Below, piece after piece: positions 1-14,860 of a stretch of DNA of 15,017 nt. A model generated the notes under the pieces. It was not told where the DNA came from. It searched no databases and was given only the letters and a program-made list of their open reading frames with translations. The DNA is taken from NCBI GenBank assembly GCA_013695175.1, contig JACDAZ010000378.1, positions 1 through 15,017 on the forward strand. The letters are read 5' to 3'. The DNA is from Flavisolibacter sp. (GTDB lineage: Bacteria; Bacteroidota; Bacteroidia; Chitinophagales; Chitinophagaceae). Numbering within the stretch: the first letter of the stretch is position 1; every line of letters starts with the position of its first letter. The position numbers were made by a program, and so were the translations under genes.

Positions 1-1529
1 GCCTGTAATCCCAATGGAATACCTAAATACCAATAAAGCAACAAAAAGATAGTCCATAATATAAAGAATGCTGCAGAATAAGGTAACATAGCAGATACCA
101 AAGTTCCAATTCCGGTTTTCTTTACATAGCGTTGTGCAAACACCACTACCAAAGGAAAATAAGGCATTAATGGTGTAATGATATTTGATACAGAATCACC
201 AACACGATAAGCAGCTTGAGTAAGATCAGGCGATATAGTTAATTGCATAAGCATTGGAACAAAAATGGGACTGAGTAAAGCCCATTTAGCAGATGCAGAT
301 CCAATGAAAATATTTACAAAACCGGTTAAAATGATGATACCTACAATGGTAACCTGTGCCGACAGTTGCATGGCACTTAGCCAGGCAGCACCTTTTAATG
401 CAAGTAAAGCCCCCAGGTTTGATTTTGAAAATGCATCAATAAACAAAGCAGCAAAAAATGCCATAACAATATAATAACCCATGCCGCTCATGGCCTTTGT
501 CATTCCTGTAATGATGTCTTTAGTTTTTGTATAGGAGCCGGATAAGAATCCATATATAACGCCGGGTATTAAGAATAATATAAAGATCAGTGGAACAATG
601 GATCGCATGATGGGTGCATCAAAAGCAGTTAATTCACCTGTTGGTGAACGTAGGGGAGAAGTAGCGGGGTTTGACCACAACCACAATCCCACCAAACCTA
701 ATATCAATACAAAAGCAGCAACATAAAATGCTTTTTTCTGTTTCCTTGTATTGTCTTCCATAACAGGTTTGTCTTCCATGTCTTCATCAACAATGGCTAC
801 TTTATTCAATCTTGGTTCCACAATCTTATCTGTTATATACCAGCCAATCAATACAATTAATAAACTGGATGCTGCAGTGAAATACCAGTTGTTCAAAGGG
901 TTCACGTTAATTTCCGGATCAATTATACGTGCTGCTGCCTGTGTAAAACCTTGTAATAAAGGATCTATTCCGGAAGGAATAAAATTGGCACTAAAGCCAC
1001 CCGATACACCGGCAAAAGCTGCAGCAATACCTGCTAAAGGATGTCTTCCGGCTACATAAAAAATAACACCGCCAAGTGGTATCACCAATACATAACCTGC
1101 ATCAGTTGCTGTATGACTTACAATAGCAACCAGTATCAGCATTGGTGTTAGCAACTTACGTGGCGTAAGGTTTAATAAAAAACGTAAGCCTGTATTAATA
1201 AAACCTGAGTGTTCTGCAACACCCACACCCAGCATGGCTACCAGTACAATTCCAAGAGGAGGAAAGGTGACAAACACTGTGATCATGTTTGACAAGAAAG
1301 CAGCAAGCGATGTTCCTGATAAAAGATTGAGAACCACAATAGGTTCTTTTGTTCGCGGATCAATTTCTGAAAATTGCGTTGGCGCCATGATGGCCGACAG
1401 AACCCAAACCAGTAACAACAAAAAGAAAAACAAAATAGCAGGATCGGGAAGTTTATTCCCTACTCTTTCAATTACATCTAAAAAACGGGTAACAAATCCT
1501 CTTTTTTGGACAGTTGGTTTTTTCTGCAT
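1..1529 (-). CDS. AbgT-family transporter (C-terminus cut by window edge)
   Basis: This is an integral inner-membrane permease of the AbgT family. Characterised members move p-aminobenzoyl-glutamate into the cell or export sulfonamides using the ion gradient; the substrate here cannot be read from sequence. I translated the minus strand from the ATG at 1529, the first ATG after an in-frame stop near 1598, and obtained about 509 codons without a stop. Family features include an N-terminal region reading NKLPDPAILFFFLLLL, a stretch SHTATDAGYVLVIPLGG, a stretch VSGGFSANFIPSGIDPL, and a C-terminal region with IGSASAKWALLSPIFVPML and VGDSVSNIITPLMPYFPL. Hydrophobic segments recur throughout. The last visible residues, GIPLGLQ, fall where AbgT proteins normally end, so only a few residues are missing. 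No ribosome binding site is visible, as usual in this phylum. It diverges from the toxin-antitoxin pair and shares a ~300-base intergenic region with it. Confidence 0.93.
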   Translation of the reverse strand, partial: MQKKPTVQKRGFVTRFLDVIERVGNKLPDPAILFFFLLLLVWVLSAIMAPTQFSEIDPRTKEPIVVLNLLSGTSLAAFLSNMITVFVTFPPLGIVLVAMLGVGVAEHSGFINTGLRFLLNLTPRKLLTPMLILVAIVSHTATDAGYVLVIPLGGVIFYVAGRHPLAGIAAAFAGVSGGFSANFIPSGIDPLLQGFTQAAARIIDPEINVNPLNNWYFTAASSLLIVLIGWYITDKIVEPRLNKVAIVDEDMEDKPVMEDNTRKQKKAFYVAAFVLILGLVGLWLWSNPATSPLRSPTGELTAFDAPIMRSIVPLIFILFLIPGVIYGFLSGSYTKTKDIITGMTKAMSGMGYYIVMAFFAALFIDAFSKSNLGALLALKGAAWLSAMQLSAQVTIVGIIILTGFVNIFIGSASAKWALLSPIFVPMLMQLTISPDLTQAAYRVGDSVSNIITPLMPYFPLVVVFAQRYVKKTGIGTLVSAMLPYSAAFFILWTIFLLLYWYLGIPLGLQ

Positions 1530-1749
1530 TGGTTGCTTTTTACCGAAAGTAGTGTGTTGCTGCTTATTTATCAATAACAGCAGGAATAATTATTATGATG
1601 TGTATTTATTGTTAACTGAAGTATTGCAGGTAGAAATAGGATTGATTTAATAAAAATTTTCCAAATATTGCCTAATATGTAATTACTTAATATTAATCTT
1701 CAATTTTTATTCATTCACATTTGCAATTAAAATGTTGTAAAAATCAATC

Positions 1750-1767
1750 TGTAATATAAATATTACA
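1750..1767. promoter_or_regulatory. Perfect inverted repeat, candidate operator
   Basis: TGTAATAT and ATATTACA form perfect 8-base arms around an AA spacer. It lies 36 bases upstream of the -7 box of the toxin-antitoxin genes, in the divergent region shared with the AbgT gene. Type II antitoxins commonly repress their own promoter through such dyads, so an operator is plausible. The region is very A+T-rich, so chance is not excluded. Confidence 0.35.
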
Positions 1768-1802
1768 ATAGTAAAGTATCATACATTCCGGATTGCTTTT
1801 AG

Positions 1803-1810
1803 TATATTTG
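1803..1810 (+). promoter_or_regulatory. Bacteroidota-type -7 box (TATATTTG) for the TA operon
   Basis: TATATTTG matches the Bacteroidota -7 consensus TAnnTTTG exactly and lies 14 bases before the ATG at 1825. That would give a very short leader. No convincing TTG box is seen about 19-20 bases upstream, so the call rests on the -7 element alone. Confidence 0.4.
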
Positions 1811-1824
1811 ATCGTGTATTTATA

Positions 1825-2058
1825 ATGAAAGCAGATCTAAACATATCACTTACATTTCGCCAAATTCTCGACCTGGTAAGGCAATTACCGAGACAGCAAA
1901 AAATACGGCTGACTAAGGAGTTGGAAAGAGAAGGTATTAATACCACACTTTCTCAAATACTTCAAGCTTTTAAGACTGATATACTTACACAAAAAATGAT
2001 TGACCAGGAAGTGGAAATCGTAAGACAAGAGCTTTATGAGCAGTCACAAAAGCATTAA
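1825..2058 (+). CDS. Putative antitoxin of a PIN-toxin pair
   Basis: This is a 77-residue, charged, mostly helical protein. A segment reading LTFRQILDLVRQLPRQQKIRLTKEL (in pieces: residues ~10-34) resembles the N-termini of small Bacteroidota antitoxin-like proteins, and the C-terminal half (TQKMIDQEVEIVRQELY) looks like the toxin-neutralising tail. It overlaps the next gene by 23 bases, the tight coupling typical of antitoxin-toxin pairs. Its role is inferred mainly from position and size. I cannot name a DNA-binding fold with confidence. It is expected to bind and block the PIN toxin and perhaps to repress its own promoter at the upstream dyad. Confidence 0.7.
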   Translation: MKADLNISLTFRQILDLVRQLPRQQKIRLTKELEREGINTTLSQILQAFKTDILTQKMIDQEVEIVRQELYEQSQKH

Positions 2059-2467
2059 AGCAATTATTGATACAAATATCTGGATTAGTTTTTTGATTGG
2101 TAAAAAGCTACACAGTATAAAAGACCTGATATCATCCCGCCAAATTATCATTGTACTTTCTGAGCAACTTTTGCTTGAATTTAAAATGGTTACAAAAAGA
2201 CCGAAACTGAAAAAATATTTTCCAGAGCAAAAGGTTGAGGAACTAATTGATTTTTTTAAAATTGTTGGACAAATACATGAACCAAATTTCAACAATTATT
2301 TGAGCAGAGACCCAAAAGATAATTTCTTACTTGATCTGGCTGTGATTTCAAAAGCAGATTTCCTGGTTACTGGTGATAAAGATTTACTTGTTTTAAACCC
2401 TTTCAAGAAAACTCAAATTTTGAATCCTGCAGACTTTGAAGCAGTGTTAATCAAATCCATTCAGTAG
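2036..2467 (+). CDS. PIN-domain toxin, putative ribonuclease
   Basis: This 143-residue protein is a single PIN domain of the 'putative toxin-antitoxin system toxin component, PIN family' type. Such proteins are Mg2+-dependent RNases that cut tRNA, rRNA or mRNA when free of antitoxin. The acidic residues expected of the fold are visible: D12 in IIDTNIWISFLI, E48 in LLLEFK, D92/D95 in SRDPKDNFLLDLA, and D114/D116 in VTGDKDLL. The length is normal for the family. The ATG at 2036 places the first beta strand at residues 7-12, as expected, and overlaps the antitoxin gene by 23 bases, suggesting translational coupling. It lies downstream of its antitoxin, the usual order. No truncation is seen. The RNA target is unknown. 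Confidence 0.87.
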   Translation: MSSHKSIKAIIDTNIWISFLIGKKLHSIKDLISSRQIIIVLSEQLLLEFKMVTKRPKLKKYFPEQKVEELIDFFKIVGQIHEPNFNNYLSRDPKDNFLLDLAVISKADFLVTGDKDLLVLNPFKKTQILNPADFEAVLIKSIQ

Positions 2468-2591
2468 CTGTGTTTATGAACTGGCAGCCTAATCAATATA
2501 ATTGCTATCAGTAAGATTCCAGATAACAGCAGCAATAATATTTATTAATGTGCAATTGATGTTAGTTACTTCATCATCTTCATTTTAAATT

Positions 2592-2660
2592 GGAACGCAG
2601 ATGCCACGGATCATTAAGATGGATTAAGATTTTTTTTTGCCACTTGGCACAAAGTATTGT
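2592..2660. repeat. Possible dispersed intergenic repeat remnant
   Basis: The gap between the PIN toxin and the protease (2468-2714) holds no gene. Within it, AACGCAGATGCCACGGAT followed by repeated GATTAAGAT-like words, a T-run and GCCACTTGGCACAAAG resembles short motifs I remember as recurring in intergenic DNA of Bacteroidota (ACGCAGAT..CACGGATTA and GCCAC..GGCACAAAG types). This rests on memory of motif style only. I see no clear rho-independent terminator for either convergent gene. Confidence 0.3.
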
Positions 2661-2714
2661 ATAAAAAGCTTAGATGTGAATAATCAACTTAATAAAGATT
2701 CAACTTAAGCAACT

Positions 2715-5700
2715 TCATTTTTTCTTTTCACTGATTTGTTTCAATAGCTCACTAACGGCAACATCTAATTGCGCATCTTTATTGGGTTCACCTAAAGGGT
2801 TGCTCACCGTTATATCAACAGGGCGTGGTTCCAGTTCCATATTATTTCCTTTATTGTCTGTAATTTTTATAAATGGAAGTCGTATGATGGTACCATCAAA
2901 TAGTGTAATGTTTGATGTATAAATAATCCATGCAGAGGTTGGTTCTCCCACAACTTTACCCAAGCCAAGTGTTTGATATCCTTCCGAAAAATCTTCAGCA
3001 TCTGAAAGTGAATGTTGATTGGTTACTAATATAGTTGGCGCATCCAGTGCTCTTTGTCCTAACATGGTACGTGCCGGCGCAGGCTCCAGTCCTCTTACTG
3101 TCATAGTCATATATCCTCTCCTTGCAAAAACATCAAGCGCAAAAGCATTTACAAAACCGCCATTATTATTCCTGATATCAATGACCACACCTTCTTTTGC
3201 ATGATTTTCAGCATCCATATCAATGTAAAGCTGGTCAAGTGAGTTTTGTCCCATGTCAAACATATGAACATAGCCCAACCTTCCATTGCTGATTTTATGT
3301 ACATAATCACGGCTTTGCTGTACCCACTGTTTGTATAATAATCCTTTTTCTGTATTAAGATTCACAGGTTTTACAACAACTTCTTTTGCGTTTGCTTCAT
3401 TAGCATTTGTACTAACAGAAAGTACCACCCTGCGATTTACTTTATTTTCCAGTAGCTGGTCAACATTAGTTGAACTATTTATTTGTTCACCATCAATGGC
3501 AGTTATAAAATCACCGGTTTTTATATTTCCAGATAAAGCAGCAGGACCTAATGCAATCACTTCTCTTACTCTTAACTTTCCATCTTTTTCATAAGCATCT
3601 CTTTCAAAGCGAAGCCCTAAATGACCTGTGTTGGTAGCAGATGGTGTATTGGCACCAACACCGGAATGGCTAGCATTTAATTCACCAACCATCAGGTTTA
3701 AAATTCTTCTTAATTCATCAGGTGTTTGAGCACCGGCAGCATAAGGTTCATATTTGGTTTTTACTTCCTGCCAGTTTACTCCATGAAAATTTTCATCATA
3801 AAATCCCTTGTTTTGTAATTCCCATGCCTGCCTGAAAACTTCCATTTTACGCTCTTTAAAATCTGCTGCCATTTCTGCTGTGAGGTTGATTGGTTTTACC
3901 TGACGCGAATCTATGTTCACTGATTGCACCCTGCCATTTTCTGTATAAAAAAGTTCTTTTCCATCGGCTGAAAACTGAATATGATTTTTAAAACCCGGTG
4001 TAAATGTGAGTTGTTTTAATACTGCAGGTTCACGTGATAATTCATCTAAAGAATAAGTGTAAATATTAGGCTGACCTGCAATGGAGGCAACTACAACTAA
4101 TGTATTGCCATCTTTACTTAAATCCATGTTATTCACATCCACACCTAAAGGAAGAAAACTTAATCTTTCACGGATACCCTCAAACGAAATTTGTTGCGGC
4201 TGCTGTGATGGGGCAGGTGGATTAACAGCGGGATCGGTTTTTGGTTTGGCTGGAGTTTCTGCAGGGGCAGGTTGTGAAAAAAGATCACGAAACTGGTCTT
4301 CACGAAAACGGGGTTGCCGCGGTTGCAGATCTATTCTTGCCACTTGTCCGTTTTCGGTACGTTGTACAGTTGTAAATAAAATTGTTTTGCCATCTCCTCC
4401 CCATGTTAAGTTGCCACCAAAACTATTTGCTAAAAAAGAGACCTGCCTGGCTTCACCACCCTGTGCAGGTACCACATGAATGTTGTGAAAAGATTTTGAT
4501 CCATAAGATGCATAAGCAATCCATTTATTATCCGGCGACCATGCTATAGAACCACTTGTTGCAATGGGTGAAAAAACTAAATTTCCTTTTGCCAGTAAAG
4601 TTTCTTTTCCCGATGCAAGATCCAGTACCCTGATTTCTTTTCTTGCTCTCACAAAAGCAAGTTTTTTACCATCCGGTGAAAGCGTTAAAGAACCAACATC
4701 TTCCGAGGCGGTTGTAAGCGGTGATTCTTTACCGGTTAAAAAATTATATTGATAAATATTTGTTTTTCCCCTTCTGTCAGAAGTATAGAATAAACTATTG
4801 CTGTTCGATGACCAGGTTAGACCTGTTTCCATTCCTGTAGTTGTGGTGATACGCACTGCGTCACCGCCATCTTTGGCACCTGCTACAAACACTTCTCCCT
4901 GTGCAGTAAAAGCTAATTTTTTACCATCGGGCGATAAACTTACATCACCAAAACCTGTAGTTAAACGCATGTAATCCACCGAAGGAGAAGCGGGTGCGCC
5001 GCGTAAGGTTATGGAAACCGGTTTGGATTCATTGGTTGTAATATCCATTTTCCAGATGGAAAAATCACGTTCAAAAACTATGGTATTACCGTTATAAGAA
5101 ATGGCAGGAAATAAAACACGTCCATCTTTAAACTGTGTTATTTGTTTTGCAGTACCATTCACCGGTTGCATCCATATGTTTTGATTTCCGTTACGGTCAG
5201 AAACATAATAAAGATTTTTTCCGTCTGCCGACCACATAGGCCAAAGTTGTTTGGCACCTTTTTCAGCAATACGTGTATATTTTTTATCATCTTCATTTAG
5301 TAACCAGATTTCTGATTCATCCAAATGACTGCGACCATTTCGCCACCACTGGATGGCTCCAAATCCGCGGGCTACGATTGCTAAAGAATTATTTGTTGGT
5401 GATGGGGCAGCAGAAAATTCATTGATGTACCTGTTGTCAGAAACAAGCATGGGTGTACCACCGCTTGCTTTTATGCGAAACACATCACGCATACCTGAAA
5501 TATCCCTGCTGATAGAAGAGAAATAAATATACTTACCATCTTTTGACCATGCACTCAGTTCATCATTACCATCATCATAGGTTAAGCGCCTTACTACATT
5601 TGATTGCAGGTCAAGAATATAAATATCTCCGTTACCAGAACGTGTAGAATGAAAAGCCAGTGATGTACCGTCAGGAGAAAATAAGGGCCTTGTTTCCATT

Positions 5701-5906
5701 GCCGGATGGGAAACCAATAAGCGGGCTTCGCCACCTGTTGCCGGAACGGTCCATATATCACCACCAGATACAAAAGCAATTTCATTGGATGTGGGTGATA
5801 AAGAGGGATCATAAAAATAATGCCTGCCCTGCACGGAACTTTGGGCAAAGCTGTAATAGTTTATGACAAGGGTAAATAGAATAGATAAGGCAAAAGATTT
5901 TCTCAT
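2715..5906 (-). CDS. Secreted Tricorn-like S41-family protease
   Basis: This 1063-residue periplasmic protein resembles archaeal Tricorn protease, which degrades oligopeptides and is gated by beta propellers. A signal peptide spans residues 1-21 (hydrophobic LSILFTLVINYYSFA, cleavage likely before Q22). TolB/PD40-type propeller repeats follow to about residue 540 (SPDGTSLAF, SADGKNLYYVSDRNG, SPDGKKLAF and others). A proline-rich linker lies near 540-570, and more propeller repeats reach about 680. The C-terminal core has the Tricorn-like histidine H747 (NASHSG), a PDZ domain at about 762-850 (GPAALSGNIKTGDFITAIDG), and the S41 catalytic region with S968-D969 (SLSDAEDF) and a glutamate near 1024-1026. 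The chain is full length and the expected catalytic residues are present. It is transcribed alone, convergent with the PIN toxin. Its leader contains an inverted repeat (5946-5965), and an imperfect copy of that leader occurs at 9697-9751. Confidence 0.93.
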   Translation of the reverse strand: MRKSFALSILFTLVINYYSFAQSSVQGRHYFYDPSLSPTSNEIAFVSGGDIWTVPATGGEARLLVSHPAMETRPLFSPDGTSLAFHSTRSGNGDIYILDLQSNVVRRLTYDDGNDELSAWSKDGKYIYFSSISRDISGMRDVFRIKASGGTPMLVSDNRYINEFSAAPSPTNNSLAIVARGFGAIQWWRNGRSHLDESEIWLLNEDDKKYTRIAEKGAKQLWPMWSADGKNLYYVSDRNGNQNIWMQPVNGTAKQITQFKDGRVLFPAISYNGNTIVFERDFSIWKMDITTNESKPVSITLRGAPASPSVDYMRLTTGFGDVSLSPDGKKLAFTAQGEVFVAGAKDGGDAVRITTTTGMETGLTWSSNSNSLFYTSDRRGKTNIYQYNFLTGKESPLTTASEDVGSLTLSPDGKKLAFVRARKEIRVLDLASGKETLLAKGNLVFSPIATSGSIAWSPDNKWIAYASYGSKSFHNIHVVPAQGGEARQVSFLANSFGGNLTWGGDGKTILFTTVQRTENGQVARIDLQPRQPRFREDQFRDLFSQPAPAETPAKPKTDPAVNPPAPSQQPQQISFEGIRERLSFLPLGVDVNNMDLSKDGNTLVVVASIAGQPNIYTYSLDELSREPAVLKQLTFTPGFKNHIQFSADGKELFYTENGRVQSVNIDSRQVKPINLTAEMAADFKERKMEVFRQAWELQNKGFYDENFHGVNWQEVKTKYEPYAAGAQTPDELRRILNLMVGELNASHSGVGANTPSATNTGHLGLRFERDAYEKDGKLRVREVIALGPAALSGNIKTGDFITAIDGEQINSSTNVDQLLENKVNRRVVLSVSTNANEANAKEVVVKPVNLNTEKGLLYKQWVQQSRDYVHKISNGRLGYVHMFDMGQNSLDQLYIDMDAENHAKEGVVIDIRNNNGGFVNAFALDVFARRGYMTMTVRGLEPAPARTMLGQRALDAPTILVTNQHSLSDAEDFSEGYQTLGLGKVVGEPTSAWIIYTSNITLFDGTIIRLPFIKITDNKGNNMELEPRPVDITVSNPLGEPNKDAQLDVAVSELLKQISEKKK

Positions 5907-5954
5907 AACAACAAAATGAGGTTGTAAATTATGGCTTATATCATTATTACAATC
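5899..5954. repeat. Left copy of an imperfect direct repeat flanking the RhuM/RNase H/helicase block
   Basis: This segment covers the start codon and leader of the protease gene. It aligns with 9697-9751 at about 42 of 55 positions with one gap, by my hand alignment; both begin TTTCTCATAAC and share AGGTT.TAAATTATG.CTTA. The two copies bracket a 3.7-kb block with the RhuM relic, the RNase H gene and the helicase gene, so they could be old attachment or insertion-site duplications. Confidence 0.5.
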
Positions 5955-5965
5955 AAAATTGTAAT
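5946..5965. promoter_or_regulatory. Perfect inverted repeat upstream of the protease gene
   Basis: ATTACAAT and ATTGTAAT are perfect 8-base arms around CAAA, about 40 bases upstream of the protease ATG at 5906 (minus strand). On that strand a weak -33/-7 pair (TTG, 18 bases, TAATTTAC) overlaps or follows it, so the dyad could be an operator. The same TTACA/TGTAA words recur in dyads at 1750 and 12718. Confidence 0.35.
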
Positions 5966-6123
5966 TGCAAATGTTTATGAATGGTTATATAAAATGATTA
6001 AAAGGGACTTCTTCAGCAGGTAAAAAATATGTGCTTATATCCGGAGACACTTATGCAGAAATGGGCTAAAAATAATGATAGATACATATAGGAAATGATG
6101 CAACCAAATTTTCAAATAGAGCT

Positions 6124-6383
6124 ATGAATGAGATTTTACTTTATAAAATTGAGTATAAACAAAAGGAAATAAAAGTTCATTTTGATGGAAAAACCCTTTG
6201 GCTTACGCAATTTCAAATGGCAGCATTGTTTAAACAAACAAAACAAAATATTAGTTTGCATATCAACAATTGTTTTAAATAAAAAGAACTGGAAAAAAAG
6301 AAGAGGGGGCAGACGGCAACTTTATACCAGTACAAATTTATTCATTCGAACAAATGAAGTGCCAAAGACAATTCCTTATGTAA
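6124..6383 (+). pseudogene. Decayed RhuM-family gene remnant
   Basis: From the ATG at 6124 a 52-residue reading frame matches the N-terminus of RhuM-family (virulence RhuM/DNA-binding) proteins: MNEILLY, then VHFDGKTLWLTQFQMAALF, then KQTKQNISLHINNCFK. It stops at 6280-6282, where intact members continue with a FKEGELE-like sequence. After the stop, two other frames carry what look like shifted continuations (KELEKK, then EEGADGNFIPVQIYSF, ending at the stop at 6381-6383), so at least a stop and a frameshift have accumulated. Intact members are roughly 300 residues, so most of the gene is gone. Such genes commonly sit in defence and mobile islands. The flanking gaps (5966-6123 and 6384-6527) hold no convincing gene. 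Confidence 0.72.
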
Positions 6384-6485
6384 GATTGGATTGACCTAAA
6401 AACAATATAAAACTTAAAATATTAGGTTAGTATTTTTAATAAACAAAAAATTATAATGCTATTAGCTTATATCATAAATTAGTGT

Positions 6486-6495
6486 GTTACGTAAC
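6486..6495. promoter_or_regulatory. 10-base perfect palindrome before the RNase H gene
   Basis: GTTACGTAAC is a perfect palindrome 32 bases upstream of the ATG at 6528. Its position fits an operator for the RNase H/helicase pair. It is short and could be chance. I see no good TAnnTTTG box nearby. Confidence 0.22.
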
Positions 6496-6527
6496 CAATT
6501 GACAACCCCTAAAATTAACGGCTTACA

Positions 6528-7481
6528 ATGACTGAAGAAGTCAAAATATATGTTTATAGTTCATGCCATATTTCAGAACGACTGGAAAACGATGATGCAG
6601 TTGGAACTGGTGGGTATGGAATTGTCATCAGTTCAAATGGCAAGCAAGTTGAGCAAATTTCTGGCGGTTTTTCCTTTACGACAAATGCTCGATTGGGCAT
6701 CATTGGAATTACGGAAGGGCTAAAAAGAATTAAAGTGTCGAGTAAAATTATAGTCTACATATCAAATGGGTACATCATTGACACTTTGACAAAAGGTTGG
6801 TTAGAGAATTGGAAAAAGAAAGGGTTCAAAAAGAAAAAGCACGTTGACCTTTGGAAAGAGTTGGATAGAATATTACAACAAGGCAGTCACACAATTTCAT
6901 ACAAACACTCCAAGGAGGTAAAATTCTCTAAAGACTTTCAACTTGCGGAGCAATTAGGAAAAGGAATGTCTGGCAAAAGGAATTTGCCAAATGATTTAAA
7001 CCAGTATGATAACGGAGCAGGACTTTTTGAGGCAACAGATAACATTCAAACCGAAGTTTTAAAAGTTGAAGACGACACACCAATCCTCGATAGCATTTGT
7101 GTTGACGCTTCTACGATAGAAAATCCTGGAGTTACTGAATATCGTGGCGTAGACACAAGAACGATGCAAGTATTTCAAAACAAGTATGATGAAGCAACAA
7201 ATAATATTGGTGAATTTTTAGCAATTGTTCATGCCCTTGCTCTTTACAAAAAGCAAAACAAGGAACTAAAAATTATTTATAGTGACAGCGCCATTGCTAT
7301 TTCATGGGTTAGGCAAAGAAAGTGCAAGTCAAAATATGAGCAGTCAGAAAGCAATGCAAAGCTTTTTGATGATATTAAAAGAGCTGTAGCTTGGCTTGAA
7401 AACAATAAGTTCGAAACAAAAATCTTAAAATGGAACACTGGTGCTTGGGGGCAAATTCCTGCTGACTATGGACGAAAATAA
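6528..7481 (+). CDS. Tandem RNase H protein: inactive N-domain, intact C-domain
   Basis: This 317-residue protein has two RNase H folds. RNase H cuts the RNA strand of RNA:DNA hybrids using a D-E-D-D metal-binding set. The C-terminal domain (about 186-317) is a Bacteroidota-type RNase H with all four residues visible: D193 (CVDAS), E229 (NNIGEF), D253 (YSDSAIAISWV) and D313 (IPADYGRK), spaced much as in E. coli RNase HI. The N-terminal domain (about 5-147) keeps the frame of RNase HI (GTGGYGIVI, FTTNARL, GYIIDTLTKGWLENWKKKGF, KHVDLWKELD), but the catalytic positions appear to read Y/S10-11, G57, S79 and F137, so it should be inactive. It may bind hybrids or structure the protein. A linker of about 40 residues joins them. 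It lies 52 bases upstream of the helicase gene on the same strand, so co-transcription is likely. The ATG at 6528 gives a natural start at the first beta strand. Confidence 0.85.
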   Translation: MTEEVKIYVYSSCHISERLENDDAVGTGGYGIVISSNGKQVEQISGGFSFTTNARLGIIGITEGLKRIKVSSKIIVYISNGYIIDTLTKGWLENWKKKGFKKKKHVDLWKELDRILQQGSHTISYKHSKEVKFSKDFQLAEQLGKGMSGKRNLPNDLNQYDNGAGLFEATDNIQTEVLKVEDDTPILDSICVDASTIENPGVTEYRGVDTRTMQVFQNKYDEATNNIGEFLAIVHALALYKKQNKELKIIYSDSAIAISWVRQRKCKSKYEQSESNAKLFDDIKRAVAWLENNKFETKILKWNTGAWGQIPADYGRK

Positions 7482-7533
7482 TTTGCTTTATATTGCGTTT
7501 AGATCGTATCGTTAATAGATTTTATTTCATATA

Positions 7534-9684
7534 GTGAATCAAACCAAAACAGATTTAAGCAACTTAAATGATAAGCAAAGGGAGGCCGTTGTCAGCGAAG
7601 AAAAACGGCTTTTAGTTTTGGCTGGTGCTGGCTCAGGCAAGACAAAGTCGCTTTTACAGAAACTTATTTACCTGATTGAAGAAAAAAGGGTAAGCCCGTC
7701 AAGTATTCTTGCCATCACTTTCACAAAGAACACGACCAATGAAATGATTGACCGCTTAATCATTTCAGCAGATACGACAGGACAATATGAAAGCATGTTG
7801 TTTGACAAGCGAATGAGCAAAGTTGATAAGGATAAGGAAAGATTTAGCAATCAGAAAAAGTACAAGTGGATTGATGGTTTAACAGTAAGAACTTTTCACA
7901 GCTTTTGTTATAGCATCTTGCGAAACTATGGGGTGAATGAGTTTGACAACAAGTTTAGAATAATCGGTGATGAAAAAAGAGATGAAGAAGATGAACTTTC
8001 AAAATATGTTGCTCCAGAAACAGTTTTTGAGGTAGTCCACAAGCTTTTAATTGAACAATGTGAGGACACGGAATTTTTACTGCAACTCAAACGGTATATT
8101 TTAGATTACATCATTGACAAAATACACTTAAAGAAAAATGACACTAAGTATTTACCCAAAGACGGTAAATATTTCACTACGCTTGACGGAACAAAAGTTC
8201 GTTCCAAATCTGAACAGTTTATTGCCGACTGGTTTTACAGGCATAGTATAAAATACGAGTATGAGCCTTTACTCAATGTTAAAGATTTTGCTTTTCATCC
8301 AGACTTTTTTATTGCTGATGCCAATCTTTATATTGAGCATGTAAGCGACAAAAGTTATTCAACCAAAGACAAAGAGGAACAATTTCAAAAAGGTAACTTG
8401 CTTTTGGTTAAGACCTATGAAAGTATGACAAAGGACTCCGCTTTATTTAATCATACTTTGGACAAGGTTTTAAAAAATCGGTTACCTGCAAACTATCGCA
8501 AGACAGTTTCACTTACCTACAAAGAAGAATTTAACGGCTATCATGAAAACGTAAAAGACTTTGTTACCCAAATCATGCGTATCACAGACATGATTAAAGT
8601 TGAGAATATTGACTTGAAGATGGTTTTAGAAAATGCAAGGAAAGACCAGCATGAAAGGGTTAGAATTTTTTATGAATTAGCCATCCCAATTGTTGAAAAG
8701 TATATTCAGTATTGCACAAACAAATCTTTTCTTGACTTCAACGACTTAATTTCAAGAAGCATATCCCTTTTTCAAAACCACGAAGACATAGCAAACAAAT
8801 ACAAAAGCAAATACCAGTACATTTTAGTAGATGAGTTTCAAGATGTGAATAATTTACAAGTTGAGCTAATCAAACTTTTACTTACCGACCAGACACAATT
8901 GTTTTGTGTTGGTGATGACTGGCAAAGTATTTATGGTTTTAGAGGGTCTAATGTGAGTTATATTGTTGACTTTGAAAATCACTTTCAAAATTCAAAAGTT
9001 GTAAAACTAAATTTGAATTATCGCAGCACACAAAATATTGTTGGGGCAAGCAATGAAGTAATTAAGCACAACAAATTTAAAGTTGAAAAAGAAATACATT
9101 CTTCAAAGCAATCAGAACATAAAATCGTTGTGTATTCTGGCAATAGCGAAGAAGAAAACATTCAATTTTGTTTGGATAAAGTGCAAGAGTTATTAGACGA
9201 TGGAATGACTAACGACGATATTTTATTTCTTTATCGAAGAAGTAAAATGTTTTCGCCGTATTTTTTTCGCTTTAAAAATGATAATGTAAGAGTTCAATCA
9301 AAAACTATTCACGCTGCAAAAGGACTAGAAGCAAAAGTTGTTTTCATTATTGGCTTGACGGAAGGTAGTGGTGGCTTTCCAGACATTTGGTTAGAGGATA
9401 GAATTTTTCAAATCATTAAAAAAGCAAACCATGATTTGCTTATGGAAGAAGAAAGACGGCTCTTTTATGTTGCAATTACCAGAGCAAAGGACAAACTTTT
9501 TCTAATAACTGAAAAAGGGAATGAATCAAGTTTTTTAAAAGAGATTCCAGATATATTTACCGTTAAGACAAGCATACCAATAAAATCAGTTGTTGAAAAA
9601 TTAATTATTTGCCCAAAGTGTTTTAGTCAGCTTGAAAAACTATTTACCTTTTGCCCTTATTGTGGACTCAAAACGACAGAGTGA
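7534..9684 (+). CDS. UvrD/Rep-like SF1A helicase with nuclease-like insert and zinc ribbon
   Basis: This 716-residue protein is an ATP-dependent 3'-5' DNA helicase by family. The SF1 motifs are complete: Walker A AGAGSGKT (30-37), Ia ITFTKNTTNEM (61-71), TVRTFHSF (117-124), Walker B LVDEFQD (431-437), VGDDWQSIYGFRG (459-471), LNYRSTQNI (494-502), HAAKGLEAKVVF (593-604) and VAITRAKDKLFL (646-657). Between motifs Ib and II, residues ~215-300 form a PD-(D/E)XK-like insert with E227 (RSKSEQF), D257 (HPDFFI) and E268 (YIEH), where a histidine stands at the usual lysine position. A C-terminal zinc ribbon has C693, C696, C707 and C710. The start is a GTG; a stop at 7516-7518 excludes a longer form and no in-frame ATG lies near. 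It probably acts with the upstream RNase H on nucleic-acid substrates in repair or phage defence; that role is inferred. Confidence 0.9.
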   Translation: MNQTKTDLSNLNDKQREAVVSEEKRLLVLAGAGSGKTKSLLQKLIYLIEEKRVSPSSILAITFTKNTTNEMIDRLIISADTTGQYESMLFDKRMSKVDKDKERFSNQKKYKWIDGLTVRTFHSFCYSILRNYGVNEFDNKFRIIGDEKRDEEDELSKYVAPETVFEVVHKLLIEQCEDTEFLLQLKRYILDYIIDKIHLKKNDTKYLPKDGKYFTTLDGTKVRSKSEQFIADWFYRHSIKYEYEPLLNVKDFAFHPDFFIADANLYIEHVSDKSYSTKDKEEQFQKGNLLLVKTYESMTKDSALFNHTLDKVLKNRLPANYRKTVSLTYKEEFNGYHENVKDFVTQIMRITDMIKVENIDLKMVLENARKDQHERVRIFYELAIPIVEKYIQYCTNKSFLDFNDLISRSISLFQNHEDIANKYKSKYQYILVDEFQDVNNLQVELIKLLLTDQTQLFCVGDDWQSIYGFRGSNVSYIVDFENHFQNSKVVKLNLNYRSTQNIVGASNEVIKHNKFKVEKEIHSSKQSEHKIVVYSGNSEEENIQFCLDKVQELLDDGMTNDDILFLYRRSKMFSPYFFRFKNDNVRVQSKTIHAAKGLEAKVVFIIGLTEGSGGFPDIWLEDRIFQIIKKANHDLLMEEERRLFYVAITRAKDKLFLITEKGNESSFLKEIPDIFTVKTSIPIKSVVEKLIICPKCFSQLEKLFTFCPYCGLKTTE

Positions 9685-9696
9685 CGAAGCATAATT

Positions 9697-9751
9697 TTTC
9701 TCATAACTAAAAAATAGGTTTTAAATTATGTCTTAAATAATAGTTCCAATC
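9697..9751. repeat. Right copy of the imperfect direct repeat (protease leader-like)
   Basis: This is the partner of 5899-5954. On the minus strand it contains an ATGAGAAAA start like that of the protease gene, preceded by a diverged version of its leader, but no open frame follows. It begins 12 bases after the helicase stop codon. The rest of the gap before hsdR (9752-9876) holds no gene; it contains a short direct repeat TTACTTGGT at 9778-9786 and 9795-9803. Confidence 0.5.
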
Positions 9752-9876
9752 CAATTCAGTCATTACAATGCCTAAATTTACTTGGTACAAATTATTACTT
9801 GGTGACATCTTAAAAATTTTATGAATAATATGTTTTAACTATCTTCAACCGCTAAGAAATTTACATACTAACTCAC

Positions 9877-12708
9877 TTGAAAAACGAGAAATTAACGAGA
9901 AAAGAAATTATTGATCTGCGATTGCTGCAGGCAGGTTGGAATGTAACTGACAAGACACATGTCATTGAAGAATTTGATATTCACCTTACTATTGTTGAAG
10001 AACCACAAACACCCTACTCCGGTCATCAATATAGCGACTATGTATTAATGGGAAAAAATGGAAAACCGATTGCGGTGGTGGAAGCTAAAAAAACTTCTGT
10101 TGACGCTGCACTGGGACGGGAGCAAGCCAAACAATATTGTTATAATATTCAATCAAAACATGGTGGTGAACTACCCTTTTGTTTCTATACTAACGGACAC
10201 GACATATATTTTTGGGATTTAGATAATTACCCACCAAAAAAAGTTTATGGTTTTCCAACCAGAGAAGATCTTGAACGCTATGCTTACATACGTAAAGCAA
10301 GAAAGCCTTTAGCAGGTGAACTTATTAATACAAAAATTGCAGGACGAAATTATCAGATTGCATCTATACGTGCTGTAATGGAAGCTGTTGAAAAAAGGAA
10401 ACGAAAATTTTTATTGGTAATGGCAACAGGTACAGGTAAAACAAGAACCTGTATTGCTTTAGTTGATGCATTAATGAGAGCTGGCTGGGCTGAAAGAGTT
10501 TTGTTTCTTGTTGACAGAATTGCTTTGCGTGATCAGACTTTAGATGCTTTTAAAGAGCATTTACCCAACGAACCAAGATGGCCAAAACAAGGTGAAAAAG
10601 AAATTGCTATAGATAGACGAATTTATGTTTCAACTTATCCAACTATGTTGAATGTAATTCGGAATGATGTCAAATCATTGAGTTCTCACTTCTTCGATTT
10701 GATTGTGGTGGATGAAAGCCACCGTAGCATTTACAATACCTACCAGGAAATTCTGGATTACTTCAATACTATTACTCTTGGCTTAACAGCCACGCCAACA
10801 GATGTAATTGACCATAACACTTTTCAATTGTTTGAAAGTGAAGATGGTGTTCCGACTTTTGCTTACTCATATGATGAAGCGGTTAATCACATTCCCCCTT
10901 TTTTGAGCAATTTTCAGGTAATGAAAATCAAAACAAGGTTTCAGGATGAAGGCATCAACAAAAGGACAATTTCATTGGAAGATCAGAAAAAATTGATGTC
11001 GGAAGGTAAAGAAATTGAAGAAATCAATTATGAAGGAACAGAGATTGAAAAAAAGGTAACCAACCGGGGTACAAATGCTTTAATAGTTCGTGAGTTCATG
11101 GAAGAATCTATTAAAGATGCAAACGGTGTATTACCAGGTAAGACCATTTTCTTTTGCATGACCAAGGCTCATGCCAGGCGAATGGAAGAAATATTCGATG
11201 CTTTGTATCCTGAGTATAAAGGAGAATTAGCAAAGGTATTGGTAAGTGACGACCCGAGAGTTTATGGCAATGGAGGCTTATTAGACCAGTTCAAACAAAA
11301 TGATTTTCCAAGAGTGGCATTAAGTGTTGATATGTTAGATACCGGTGTAGATATTCGGGAATTGGTGAATTTAGTTTTTGCAAAACCTGTTTATAGTTAT
11401 ACCAAATTTTGGCAAATGATAGGCAGGGGAACTCGTTTACTTGAATCTGAGAAAATAAAGCCCTGGTGCACACAAAAAGATAGTTTTCTGATTCTTGATT
11501 GCTGGGACAACTTTGAATATTTCAAACTCAATCCAAGGGGTAAAGAATTAAAGTCACAGATTCCTTTGCCTGTGCGTTTGTTTGGTGTTAGATTAGAAAA
11601 AATTAAAGAAGCTCAAATTCAAAGCATAACTGAAATTGTAACCAAAGAAGTTCAGAAAATCAGAAAGCAAATTGAAACACTTCCAAAAAATTCGGTGGTC
11701 ATTATGGAAGCCAAACATGATTTGCAGCGATTGGAAGATGAAAATTTTTGGAACAATCTGACTTCAGACAAAATGGAATATCTGGAAGATTTCGTAAAAC
11801 CATTACTCCGCACAGTTTCAGATGTAGATTTCAAAGCCATGCGATTTGAAAAAGATATTGTGGAAGTTTCATTGGCTCATTTAGCTGGTGAAACTGAACC
11901 TGCCCGTCCGGCAGGCAGGAAATTTGAAACGCTTAAAGAAAGCATCATTGAAGAAATTGGTGAACTGCCTTTAAGCATCAACATCGTTGCAAGAGAACAG
12001 GAATTGATTCGAAAAGCACAGAGCAACCATTATTGGGCAACCCCCGCAGGAAGCGAGGCAGGGATTCTTGAAGACAAGTTTGAAGAACTCATTCAAAAAC
12101 TTTCGCCTTTAATGAAATTCAGGGAAGCGGTCATCCCGTTAGCTCCTGCCAAATTCAATTTTAAAGACGTTGTTGCTGAAAAGGAATTTGTTGAGTTTGG
12201 CCCGCAACATGAAGCATTGAGTGTAGCCAAATACCGTGAATTAGTTGAAAAGAAAATCAATGAATTAGTATCAGGCAGTCCTATTTTATTAAAACTAAAA
12301 CAAGGACAAGAAATTACTTCAGATGAAGCCGAACAATTAGCCGAGGAATTACACAACGAGCATCCGCATATTACAATTGAATTACTTCGCAAGGTTTACA
12401 ACCACCGCAAAGCTGCATTGGTGCAATTCATCAAACATATTTTTGGCATTGAACATTTAGAAACTTTTGCTGAAACAGTAACCAAAGCATTTGATGATTT
12501 TATTGCCAAACATAGTTACCTCACCAGCCGTCAACTTCAATTCCTTGATTTGCTAAAGAACTTTGTTTTGGAAAAAGGTGATGTGAGCAAGCGCAACCTG
12601 ATTGAATCTCCTTTCACCATGATTCACCCTGAAGGCATCAGGGGAATATTCAATCAAAAGGAAATTGACGAAATTTTAAGTTTAACAGAAAAAGTATTAG
12701 CGGCATAA
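9877..12708 (+). CDS. hsdR: Type I restriction enzyme R subunit (HsdR, EcoEI-like)
   Basis: This is the restriction and DNA-translocating subunit, 943 residues, which works with HsdM and HsdS to cut unmodified DNA. The N-terminal endonuclease domain has D54 (YSDYVL), E69-x-K71 (VVEAKK) and a REQAKQY motif (81-87). The SF2 motor has Walker A ATGTGKTR (183-190), DESH (279-282), TATP (304-307) and motif VI WQMIGRGTRL near 512-521. The C-terminal region (from about 600) is of EcoEI_R_C type, ending GIRGIFNQKEIDEIL...VLAA. The start is TTG at 9877; a stop at 9853-9855 excludes a longer form, and the first methionine (M58) would remove the nuclease aspartate. Two G+C-rich palindromic insertions lie in frame near residues 675-681 and 723-731. 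No hsdM or hsdS is in the window. The last ~48 bases resemble segments repeated in the array downstream. Confidence 0.94.
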   Translation: MKNEKLTRKEIIDLRLLQAGWNVTDKTHVIEEFDIHLTIVEEPQTPYSGHQYSDYVLMGKNGKPIAVVEAKKTSVDAALGREQAKQYCYNIQSKHGGELPFCFYTNGHDIYFWDLDNYPPKKVYGFPTREDLERYAYIRKARKPLAGELINTKIAGRNYQIASIRAVMEAVEKRKRKFLLVMATGTGKTRTCIALVDALMRAGWAERVLFLVDRIALRDQTLDAFKEHLPNEPRWPKQGEKEIAIDRRIYVSTYPTMLNVIRNDVKSLSSHFFDLIVVDESHRSIYNTYQEILDYFNTITLGLTATPTDVIDHNTFQLFESEDGVPTFAYSYDEAVNHIPPFLSNFQVMKIKTRFQDEGINKRTISLEDQKKLMSEGKEIEEINYEGTEIEKKVTNRGTNALIVREFMEESIKDANGVLPGKTIFFCMTKAHARRMEEIFDALYPEYKGELAKVLVSDDPRVYGNGGLLDQFKQNDFPRVALSVDMLDTGVDIRELVNLVFAKPVYSYTKFWQMIGRGTRLLESEKIKPWCTQKDSFLILDCWDNFEYFKLNPRGKELKSQIPLPVRLFGVRLEKIKEAQIQSITEIVTKEVQKIRKQIETLPKNSVVIMEAKHDLQRLEDENFWNNLTSDKMEYLEDFVKPLLRTVSDVDFKAMRFEKDIVEVSLAHLAGETEPARPAGRKFETLKESIIEEIGELPLSINIVAREQELIRKAQSNHYWATPAGSEAGILEDKFEELIQKLSPLMKFREAVIPLAPAKFNFKDVVAEKEFVEFGPQHEALSVAKYRELVEKKINELVSGSPILLKLKQGQEITSDEAEQLAEELHNEHPHITIELLRKVYNHRKAALVQFIKHIFGIEHLETFAETVTKAFDDFIAKHSYLTSRQLQFLDLLKNFVLEKGDVSKRNLIESPFTMIHPEGIRGIFNQKEIDEILSLTEKVLAA
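11899..11919. repeat. In-frame palindromic insertion in hsdR (CCTGCC..GGCAGG)
   Basis: CCTGCC and GGCAGG arms surround CGTCC, followed by a second overlapping GGCAGG. The element encodes PARPAGR (residues 675-681) between GETE and a KFETLKESIIEE region that I recall as contiguous in relatives. The G+C content is far above that of the gene around it. It resembles a mobile palindrome that often reads as PAGRQ-like peptides in Bacteroidota proteins (from memory). Confidence 0.5.
12041..12064. repeat. Second G+C-rich in-frame insertion in hsdR
   Basis: A G+C-rich stretch containing CCCCGC and GCGAGG, which pair imperfectly, encodes PAGSEAGIL (residues 723-731). It interrupts what reads in relatives, as I recall, as NHYWAT directly joined to a DKFEELI region. 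It keeps the reading frame. Confidence 0.42.
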
Positions 12709-12710
12709 AG

Positions 12711-12824
12711 TGAAACCGTTACAAATTGTAACACTTTGAAATAATTGAAACCAGTTGATATCAAATTGTAGTCAATCAAAAAAGAAACTAAATGAAACCG
12801 TCACGGAATTGCCACAATTTGAAA
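12711..12824. promoter_or_regulatory. Three degenerate TGAAACC repeats with a dyad upstream of the BRO gene
   Basis: The 139-base hsdR-BRO gap holds three related segments starting TGAAACC at 12711, 12746 and 12793. The first and third align over about 31 bases (TGAAACCGT.AC..AATTG..ACA.TTTGAAA). The first contains a perfect dyad, GTTACA-AAT-TGTAAC, at 12718-12732. Such iterated sites could bind a regulator of the BRO gene. They could also be a decayed local duplication. Confidence 0.4.
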
Positions 12825-12847
12825 AGGATTCGAAAAAATGAAATGCA

Positions 12848-13705
12848 ATGCAAAAGCAAAATGAAATAAAAATATTTGAGGAGCAAAAAGTGAGAACTGC
12901 CTGGGACGCAGAACAAGAAAAGTGGTATTTCTCAATTATTGATGTAATTGAAATTTTAACCGGAACAGACAGGCCAAGAAAGTATTGGAGCGATCTGAAA
13001 ACTAAACTGAAAAAGGAAGGAAGTCAGTTGTCCGAAAAAATCGGACAACTGAAATTATTGTCCTCAGACGGAAAATCCTATAAAACCGATGTAGCTGATA
13101 CCGAACAGCTTTTCCGACTTATTCAATCTATTCCCTCGCCCAAAGCAGAACCATTTAAACTGTGGTTGGCACAGGTAGCATCTGAAAGATTGGATGAAAT
13201 GCAAGATCCGGAACTCAGTATTGACCGTGCATTGGAACAATACATGAAACTTGGTTATTCAGAAAACTGGATTAATCAAAGGCTCAAAAGCATTGAAATA
13301 CGTAAAGAATTAACGGACGAGTGGAAAAAACGCGGACTAAAAGAAGTCGTTCAGTTTGCAACACTTACTGAAATTATAACCAAAGCATGGAGTGATAAAA
13401 ACACAAAAGAATACAAAGTCTTGAAGGGTTTGAAAAAAGAAAACCTGAGAGACAACATGACGAATACCGAACTCATTTTAAACATGCTTGCGGAAGCATC
13501 GACAAAAGACATTTCGGCTGCAACCAATCCGAAAGATTTTGATGAAAGCAAAAAAGTGGCTAAGCAAGGCGGCAATGTAGCCAAAGTGGCCAGAAAAGAA
13601 TTGGAAGCCAAAACTGGTAAACAAGTAGTAACTCCTCTCAATGCCAGAACAGCTTTACTATTAAATGAGGGTGACCAAAAGAAATCGAAAAAGAAGAAAA
13701 ACTAA
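12848..13705 (+). CDS. BRO-N/DinD-like protein (antirepressor family)
   Basis: This 285-residue protein starts with a BRO-N-type domain (about residues 8-118: VRTAWDAEQEKWYFSIIDV, ILTGTDRPRKYWSDLK, FRLIQSIPSPKAEPFKLWLAQVA). It continues with a region like DNA-damage-inducible protein D (about 120-265: YMKLGYSENWINQRLKSIE, RDNMTNTELILNMLAEAST, GGNVAKVARKELEAKTGK.VVT). It ends in a lysine-rich tail. BRO-N domains bind DNA, and relatives are phage antirepressors or SOS-induced proteins. Genes of this kind are often found inside type I restriction loci in Bacteroidota, and here it follows hsdR by 139 bases. The ATG at 12848 is the first in frame. Its function in restriction loci is not established; regulation of the system is a guess. 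Confidence 0.85.
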   Translation: MQKQNEIKIFEEQKVRTAWDAEQEKWYFSIIDVIEILTGTDRPRKYWSDLKTKLKKEGSQLSEKIGQLKLLSSDGKSYKTDVADTEQLFRLIQSIPSPKAEPFKLWLAQVASERLDEMQDPELSIDRALEQYMKLGYSENWINQRLKSIEIRKELTDEWKKRGLKEVVQFATLTEIITKAWSDKNTKEYKVLKGLKKENLRDNMTNTELILNMLAEASTKDISAATNPKDFDESKKVAKQGGNVAKVARKELEAKTGKQVVTPLNARTALLLNEGDQKKSKKKKN

Positions 13706-13880
13706 TGCTTCAAAACAACTATAAACTCGTATTAGCAGCATAACCCCGAAGGGGTGACATAAAATGCCAGGTACATTTATACCAACCGATAAAGAATTTC
13801 ACCCCTTCGGGGTTTTGTGGAATCAAAAACATTTATCTATAATTTTATCATCCCTTCGGGATTACAATAATCAACAAATA

Positions 13881-13928
13881 GAGATTTATGGAATTTAAAA
13901 TTTAATCGAACAATTATTAGCAGCATAA
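13881..13928 (+). repeat. hsdR 3'-end-like segment, copy a
   Basis: This aligns without gaps to the last 48 bases of hsdR (12661-12708) at 37 of 48 positions by hand count, ending TTAGCAGCATAA against TTAGCGGCATAA. A stop codon interrupts the frame. It is followed at once by a palindrome. A partial sixth copy (GTATTAGCAGCATAA) ends at 13743, just before array unit 1. Confidence 0.6.
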
Positions 13929-13976
13929 CCCGAAGGTGGGAAAAGATTATGGAAAATAGCAATAATCAAACAAAAA

Positions 13977-14023
13977 GCGATAGACGAATTTTACATTTAA
14001 CCGAACACGTATTAGCAGCATAA
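13977..14023 (+). repeat. hsdR 3'-end-like segment, copy b
   Basis: This aligns to the hsdR 3' end at about 38 of 47 positions with one gap. In one frame it still reads RILHLTEHVLAA-stop, against EILSLTEKVLAA-stop in HsdR (9 of 12 residues identical). The upstream AATAATCAAACAAAA also resembles the hsdR sequence encoding FNQK. Confidence 0.65.
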
Positions 14024-14094
14024 CCCCGAAGGGGTGAAAAGATTATAGAAAATAACAACGATTAAAACAAAAACCCCGAAGGGGTGACATAAAA

Positions 14095-14556
14095 ATGCCA
14101 GGTACATTCTCACAAATTTATATTCAGATTGTCTTTGCCGTAAAAGGCAGGGAAAATCTTATTGTTCAATCATGGAAAGATGATTTGCATAAATACATAT
14201 CGGGAATCATTAAAGGCAAAGAGCAAAAATCCATCATTGTAAATGGAATGCCTGATCATATTCATGCTTTTGTTGGGCTAAGGCCCTCTATGCCTATTTC
14301 TGATTTGGTACGAGACATCAAAAACAATTCGTCCAATTTTATCAACGAACATAAATTTGTGAAAGGCAAATTTGCCTGGCAAGAGGGATATGGCGCTTTT
14401 TCTTATTCTCATTCACATATTACAAATGTGTATGACTACATTTTAAATCAGGAAGAACACCACAAGAAAAAAACTTTCAGGGAAGAATATCATGAATTGC
14501 TTAAAAAATTTGAAATCGAATTCAATGAAAAATATTTGTTTGAATGGATAGACTAA
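14095..14556 (+). CDS. IS200-type Y1 (HUH) transposase, RAYT-like
   Basis: This 153-residue single-strand DNA transposase has the HUH metal-binding motif H55-I56-H57 (MPDHIHAFVG). The likely catalytic tyrosine is Y115, four residues before the conserved Q119 (VYDYILNQEEHHKK). The region WQEGYGAFSYSHS (95-107) is typical of the Bacteroidota branch of the IS200 family. The length is normal for a single-domain TnpA and no damage is seen. The ATG lies 7 bases after a palindrome whose right arm, AAGGGGTGA, is also the only ribosome-binding-site-like sequence. The hairpin could therefore limit translation. No TnpB or other accessory gene is present. Dense palindromes on both sides suggest a relationship like that of RAYT proteins and REP elements, in which the transposase recognises the palindromes. 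Confidence 0.9.
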   Translation: MPGTFSQIYIQIVFAVKGRENLIVQSWKDDLHKYISGIIKGKEQKSIIVNGMPDHIHAFVGLRPSMPISDLVRDIKNNSSNFINEHKFVKGKFAWQEGYGAFSYSHSHITNVYDYILNQEEHHKKKTFREEYHELLKKFEIEFNEKYLFEWID

Positions 14557-14716
14557 ATTGCCAAAGGCATGAAATCATTATAACCATGAATGAATATTCG
14601 ACAATCAAATCCCGAAGGGATGACATAATAATTTCACCCCTTCGGGGTTTGGTGGAACCAAAATTATTTATCTATAATCATTTCATCCCTTCGGGATTAG
14701 AATAACCAAACAAATA

Positions 14717-14763
14717 GAGATTTATGGAATTAAAATCTAACCGAACAAATATTAGCAGCATAA
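14717..14763 (+). repeat. hsdR 3'-end-like segment, copy c
   Basis: This is the equivalent of copy a in unit 2 (offset 836). It ends with ATTAGCAGCATAA, has one base deleted relative to copy a, and is followed by the palindrome at 14763. Confidence 0.55.
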
Positions 14764-14811
14764 CCCTGAAAGGGTGAAAAGATTATGGAAAATAACAATA
14801 ATCAAACAAAA

Positions 14812-14860
14812 GAGATAGACCGAAATTTAAAATCTAACCAAATAAAAATAAACAGCTTAA
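14812..14860 (+). repeat. hsdR 3'-end-like segment, copy d (most diverged)
   Basis: This is the equivalent of copy b in unit 2. The beginning (GAGATAGACCGAAATTTAAA) is close to hsdR GAAATTGACGAAATTTTAAG. The end has decayed to AACAGCTTAA. It precedes the palindrome at 14860. Confidence 0.45.

Follow-up and report, generated by a model that had tools for sequence, protein, structure and literature searches.

Y1 transposases and the palindromes that accompany them have been described in several forms. IS200/IS605 elements (subclass 1.1) have hairpins at their ends and a Y1 transposase with a Y[IV]ENQ motif, and the class 2 enzymes, TnpA_REP or RAYT, have the motif Y---NP and palindromes with a 5′ GT[AG]G foot. 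Subclass 1.2 of the TnpA_Y1 family is described by Quentin et al. 2018 (PMC6006769) as low in copy number, about 148–150 aa in length, marked by the motifs Y---Q--HH, DH[IV]H and WQ, found mostly in Bacteroidetes and Cyanobacteria and generally, not absolutely, without palindromic ends. The automatic REP search of that study demanded a GTAG or GTGG foot. In addition, REP clusters, BIMEs and REPtrons, in which palindromes are reiterated in tandem together with flanking DNA, have already been described (PMC3733652, PMC8266576).

The palindrome array analysed here is both an instance and a variant of this reiteration of REP clusters. Its palindromic units also stand in tandem with flanking sequence, with a unit of 95–97 bp, and what it adds is captured DNA that records another allele of a defence gene. 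It differs from the REP clusters in that no GT[AG]G foot is seen, the transposase motif is not the Y---NP of class 2, the palindrome occupies a single locus in the assembly save for one match with 1 mismatch, and the flanking DNA resembles the hsdR end of another allele. The window, by which we mean the whole stretch of DNA that was analysed, is the complete 15,017-base contig C292 of a 3.2 Mb assembly in 547 contigs. From left to right, it carries hsdR, a BRO-N domain gene and the palindrome array, which surrounds a Y1 transposase gene (Table 1). The palindromes have the form ACCCC-GAA-GGGGT and make hairpins when folded as single-stranded DNA; the complete left end forms two (z −2.37), and 4 of 200 shuffles fold equally well. 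Within a pair, the starts of the units that carry an hsdR-like tail are separated by 95 and 97 nt; from pair to pair the distance is 835 nt. The contig end falls within the repeat array, and in an assembly of 547 contigs the copy number and order of the array may therefore be imperfect. No tRNA was found that could mark a landing site, and Rfam gave nothing at gathering thresholds. Elsewhere in the window, a small ORF lacking a Pfam match overlaps a PIN-domain gene (1825–2467), by its look a toxin-antitoxin pair, and positions 12454–12490 of hsdR share a 37-nt likeness of 76% with positions 13352–13388 of the BRO-N gene, both coding, which is possibly due to chance.

Table 1. Features of the hsdR end and the palindrome array in the window
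Feature	Position	Strand	Basis
hsdR, type I restriction subunit with EcoEI_R_C domain	9877–12708	+	Pfam ResIII, EcoEI_R_C, HSDR_N; same order in relatives
Last 48 nt of hsdR, the part copied in the array	12661–12708	+	
BRO-N domain gene, between hsdR and array	12848–13705	+	Pfam Bro-N; relatives
s1, truncated tail remnant directly 3′ of the BRO-N stop	13706–13743	+	Last 16 nt equal the end of s3
Mini-element: inner left palindrome and tnpA start, then right-end palindromes; read as internally deleted	13744–13865	+	Repeat families D2, D3, D4; sequence
s2, hsdR-tail copy, with about 14 nt before it like the left-end spacer	13866–13928	+	Alignments, shuffles
95-bp chimeric unit: palindrome and left-end spacer (13929–13976), hsdR tail s3 (13977–14023)	13929–14023	+	Alignments; BLAST
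Complete left end: outer palindrome, spacer of about 36 nt, inner palindrome, to tnpA start	14022–14094	+	BLAST matches, other genomes
tnpA, Y1 HUH transposase, 153 aa	14095–14556	+	Pfam Y1_Tnp, 3.9e-25
Right-end palindromes of the full element	14607–14699	+	Repeats D2, D3, I4, I17
s4, hsdR-tail copy, counterpart of s2	14700–14763	+	Repeats, shuffles, alignments
Second 95-bp chimeric unit: palindrome, spacer and decayed hsdR tail s5 (about 14812–14858)	14764–14858	+	Alignments
Left end and start of another mini-element, within which the contig stops	14859–15017	+	Sequence, repeats

The motifs of the window transposase (DHIH at residue 54, WQ at 95 and YILNQEEHH at 115) fit subclass 1.2, its 153 aa comparing with the length given above. 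The protein shares with IS200/IS605 a score above the cut-off of the NCBIfam transpos_IS200 model (64.9 bits against 55) and hairpins at the element ends, but it has YILNQEEHH where subclass 1.1 has Y[IV]ENQ, and no further gene in the assembly encodes a protein more than 59% identical to it: the own genome holds seven tnpA matches, two of them pieces on one contig, and all except the query are 35–59% identical. It is also distinct from RAYT, scoring 26.8 bits with the NCBIfam model REP_Tyr_transpos (cut-off 80) and having YILNQ in place of Y---NP. By eye, the window palindromes lack a GT[AG]G foot, with 5′ bases such as CATA/AAAA on the plus strand and TGTC/TTTC on the minus strand. Subclasses 2.6 and 3 likewise lack this foot (PMC6006769). 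The wider sample of 61 tnpA rows carries the same motifs, with Y---Q--HH in 58/61, DHxH in 59/61 and WQ in 58/61. Unlike the published description of subclass 1.2, 45 of these 61 loci carry palindrome arrays, defined as at least three related 5-3-5 palindromes within 800 bp, compared with 0 of 108 control-region windows and 1 of 100 windows taken from the same tnpA loci at a distance of more than 3 kb. These counts suggest that palindromic ends are usual, in this bacterial order, for transposases that have been described as a subclass generally without them.

A reading of the sequence alone had proposed that five segments of the array end in one sequence and align with the last ~48 bases of hsdR, each directly before a palindrome. 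The common ending held for four of them: TTAGCAGCATAA occurs four times in the window, always in the array (13732, 13917, 14012 and 14752), and the fifth segment (14800–14858) ends in AAACAGCTTAA. The corresponding string at the hsdR stop, TTAGCGGCATAA, occurs once in the window, at 12697. The sequence and the unit alignments bear out the palindrome directly 3′ of each segment, and the hsdR-derived part does measure 47–48 nt; the ~14–17 nt before it resemble the left-end spacer of the element. One segment, s3, still encodes an HsdR-like end, as had been proposed, in the frame RILHLTEHVLAA followed by a stop codon. The proposed comparison with shuffled controls was made by local alignment of each segment with positions 12640–12708, using 2000 dinucleotide shuffles per segment and two scorings. 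The scores of s2, s3 and s4 were reached by 0 and 0 of 2000 shuffles, that of s5 by 1 and 0, and that of s1 by 12 and 12. As a second control, the segments were compared with all stop-ending 66-mers of window positions 1–13600 on both strands (n = 1493). For s2, s3, s4 and s5 the best 66-mer was the one at the hsdR stop at 12708, with scores of 33, 37, 30 and 26, and the best scores outside 12640–12790 of the plus strand were 17, 14, 17 and 19, with s3 taken here as 13958–14023. The best window match of s1 is not hsdR (17, at 10657), and s1 is recognisable solely because it shares 16 identical nt with the s3 end (CGTATTAGCAGCATAA); by itself it does not rise above background. Judged by these alignments, the segments are genuine copies of the 3′ end of an hsdR gene.

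The source of these copies was examined by BLAST with the array alone (13706–14094) against 396 genomes of the order, which gave matches in 55 genomes, the own included. Many of the listed matches are the palindrome-spacer-palindrome unit, starting at its edge (query 316/317). Among the matches listed, the array also matches hsdR 3′ ends in four other genomes, G070 (88%), G027 (86%), G123 (84%) and G230 (82%), and these matches stop within the stop codon, where the palindrome begins. The scores of s3 against the four foreign tails (43, 40, 39 and 41, in that order) exceed its score of 37 against the local hsdR, and s2 and s4 behave as s3 does; s5 hardly differs (26–28 foreign, 26 local), and s1 does not distinguish foreign from local tails. 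In addition, ACCGAA is present in s3, s4 and the four foreign hsdR genes, where the local hsdR has ACAGAA. The proposal that an hsdR end was captured is borne out by these matches, and the better fit of s2–s4 to foreign tails means that the source was another or an earlier allele of this hsdR family. As far as the alignments tell, the array is not copied from the present local hsdR, or the local hsdR has changed since. Further BLAST matches to the tail part of the array in G253, G118 and G074, the first two of which (L191 and L192, in unannotated DNA) score 25 and 28 against s3, were left out of these conclusions.

The 95-bp unit shows where element and gene were joined. It is a chimera: the first 48 nt match the outer palindrome and spacer with which the element itself begins, the last 47 nt match hsdR, and in the unit alignments the switch to hsdR falls where a complete left end would continue with the inner palindrome. 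At the join lies a short CAAA-type run that is present in both the left-end spacer and hsdR: ACAAAAA at the spacer end, TCAAAAA in the G027 hsdR, TCAAAAG in the local gene and TCAAAG in G070 and G123. Because the run common to both sides is 4–6 nt long, differs among hsdR alleles and lies in A+T-rich DNA, it is weak evidence for the route of joining. The chimera fits a local tandem duplication of an hsdR-element junction.

From the chimera and the spacings, which are observed, we infer a history that we consider probable as a whole. A low-copy, subclass 1.2-type Y1 (HUH) element whose palindromic ends resemble REP sequences would once have stood directly behind the stop codon of an hsdR gene of this family. 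Tandem duplication would then have copied its left end along with 47 nt of the neighbouring hsdR, with the join in the CAAA-type run, giving the palindrome-spacer-tail unit, and element parts and tail units would next have been repeated by a larger duplication whose copies lie 835 bp from each other. A later exchange of the hsdR 3′ part and the space behind it may have brought BRO-N in on the array side of today's hsdR, in which case the array would preserve, as a fossil, the end of a different hsdR allele. The truncated s1, which follows immediately on the BRO-N stop, may be the remnant of an older hsdR end replaced when BRO-N came in. There is no sign of a present function of the hsdR tail.

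Such an exchange is supported by the slot 3′ of hsdR, which holds different genes in relatives: a BRO-N, a KilA-N or a DUF4062/Fic-like_C gene. Between hsdR and the presumed hsdM, assigned in these relatives by resemblance, lie BRO-N and a further ORF in G027, KilA-N in G230, a DUF4062/Fic-like_C gene in G070 (and in G004, by resemblance only), and no gene in G123. HsdM_N and N6_Mtase searches of the whole own assembly (G000) returned no hsdM partner, which may have been lost at the contig break inside the array. The proposed starting state was sought behind 17 hsdR loci (11 + 6) with readable downstream DNA of up to 1.5 kb, several of them just 33–40% identical in protein. No such palindrome array stands behind any of the 17, which speaks against this history, and the sole string of the searched forms there is one CCCTCTGGG in L037.

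The tail could also be part of the mobile unit, if cleavage took place upstream of it and the extended left end moved, tandem copies then arising by adjacent transposition. This fits the position of s2 and s4, which directly follow right-end palindromes as a junction of right and left ends would, and IS200/IS605 Y1 transposases do form such right-left end junctions. Circular single-stranded intermediates are described in PMC6006769. A tail that moved with the element should recur elsewhere, and the sequence-only reading had suggested that it was captured and then spread. Searched in the own genome with at most 1 mismatch, the palindrome string CCCCGAAGGGGTGA gave eight matches, seven on the window contig and one, with 1 mismatch, elsewhere; no unlinked tail-bearing copy was seen. 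Some of the left-end matches listed in other genomes begin up to 18 bases before the palindrome, but none among the matches listed runs through the tail, and next to two such left ends, in G153 and G392, the best tail scores were 14 and 17. A scan of 84,980 species genomes, from which records near the window's own genome were possibly left out, with the pattern TTAGCNGCATARN{0,3}CCCNAAGGG gave four unrelated hits, with no array visible in the ~1.1 kb read at each. Spreading thus finds no support beyond the window locus; as far as these searches reach, the tail is absent from other copies of the element. The capture of the tail appears to be a local event, and we regard movement of the tail with the element as unlikely.

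Another alternative is that the segments are target sites, with the element inserting at or behind hsdR ends and the array gathering them as landing sites, as had also been suggested. This bears on where related elements stand. We examined the 60 tnpA loci that scored best outside the own genome, out of 124 genomes with a match, which are not a random sample. Eight of them (L093, L094, L095, L103, L104, L106, L115 and L143) lie among type I restriction genes, all eight codirectional with them, compared with 0 of 40 loci of DDE-type IS and 0 of 18 random regions (the stretches that existed out of 20 requested). The Fisher p value is 0.006 when all 58 controls are taken together and 0.02 when the comparison is with the 40 IS loci alone, for regions of unequal size (644.5 kb for tnpA, 458.8 kb for the IS loci and 224.2 kb for the random regions). 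The hsd reference proteins came partly from the tnpA loci themselves, and adding 10 from other loci still gave 8/60. L104 matches the hsd references weakly, its assignment resting on Pfam N6_Mtase and Methylase_S. HsdM_N alone is found at four loci (L103, L106, L115 and L143) against 0.255 expected (Poisson ~1.4e-4, with rounded genome sizes). In 4 of those 8 loci (L093, L104, L106 and L115), compared with 2 of the other 52, the start of the tnpA match lies at most 10 nt from an upstream stop codon. These placements would suit a target at gene ends, but they vary: tnpA follows hsdR, hsdS or a methylase gene or precedes hsdM or hsdR, and the restriction label is scattered on the tnpA tree. Moreover, 47 nt of repeated sequence is more than a short target site would account for. 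No sequence target emerges from these insertions, and we hold it highly unlikely that hsdR ends served as landing sites.

A chance resemblance to hsdR in A+T-rich DNA, multiplied by growth of the array, is extremely improbable: s1 taken alone stays compatible with it, for the reasons given above, but it is rejected for s2–s4, whose scores were equalled neither by shuffles nor by the other window sites compared, and by the independent matches of the array to hsdR ends in four genomes. The local duplication of an hsdR-element junction is the simplest history and the one that we retain.

Restriction loci are generally rich in mobile DNA. Given this, the sampling of top hits and the small control sets, the association of subclass 1.2-like tnpA with type I restriction operons is only suggestive; such genes accompany a larger share of the tnpA loci than of the control regions compared. 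A restriction-specific tnpA clade was considered and rejected: the nine rows concerned, the window included, need 9 changes on the tree, compared with a shuffled mean of 8.6, and at least 5 of the 9 are forced by well supported branches. This distribution suggests repeated arrival rather than one co-inherited pair. Among the open-access papers listed in our searches, judged by their titles and the first lines of their abstracts, none links such transposases to restriction operons.

Two of these loci have features of their own. The type I restriction operon of L106 (G040:C6, 3590–10153) contains two Y1 transposase genes that differ from each other: the first separates hsdR from hsdM, with a start that overlaps the hsdR stop (TAATG), and the second separates hsdM from hsdS. 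In L094, a GIY-YIG domain is matched between the HsdR helicase parts (3733–5691), perhaps a homing-type insertion, and the final residues and the stop codon of an ORF upstream of tnpA, HsdS-like by eye, lie within a palindrome.

Copies of gene ends are found at other tnpA loci as well, which speaks for the history inferred above. The tail copied there is that of tnpA itself, which precedes palindromes in L098 (45/45 nt), L104 (twice, ~36–40 nt), L116 (34 nt) and L141 (24 nt). Because the likeness in L098 extends ~20 nt past the 45 searched, some of these copies could be leftovers of deleted element copies. Across the 61 tnpA loci, 10 of 533 ORF ends have a second copy at the threshold, compared with 0 of 175 in the 18 control regions. 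The ten comprise the window hsdR, the four tnpA tails at L098, L104, L116 and L141, and five other repeats or palindrome overlaps (L093, L105, L118, L138 and L144), which we do not count as tail copies.

Our findings suggest that the sequence of another allele of an adjacent gene can be preserved in a palindrome array as a fossil that is still readable, so that past exchanges at restriction loci may be traced from such tails. Both the claim of a fossil allele and that concerning the transposase subclass are directly testable. In a broader and unlikely scenario, subclass 1.2 would be a separate REP-like system that has entered type I restriction operons many times independently, often abutting the stop codon of the gene before it, with arrays that capture and amplify gene 3′ ends and so supply short homologies for swapping genes between hsdR and hsdM. 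As a separate observation on palindrome arrays, L195 (G054:C219, ~31701–33453), in another genome, carries a long, regular one, with matches 168 bp or multiples of this apart.
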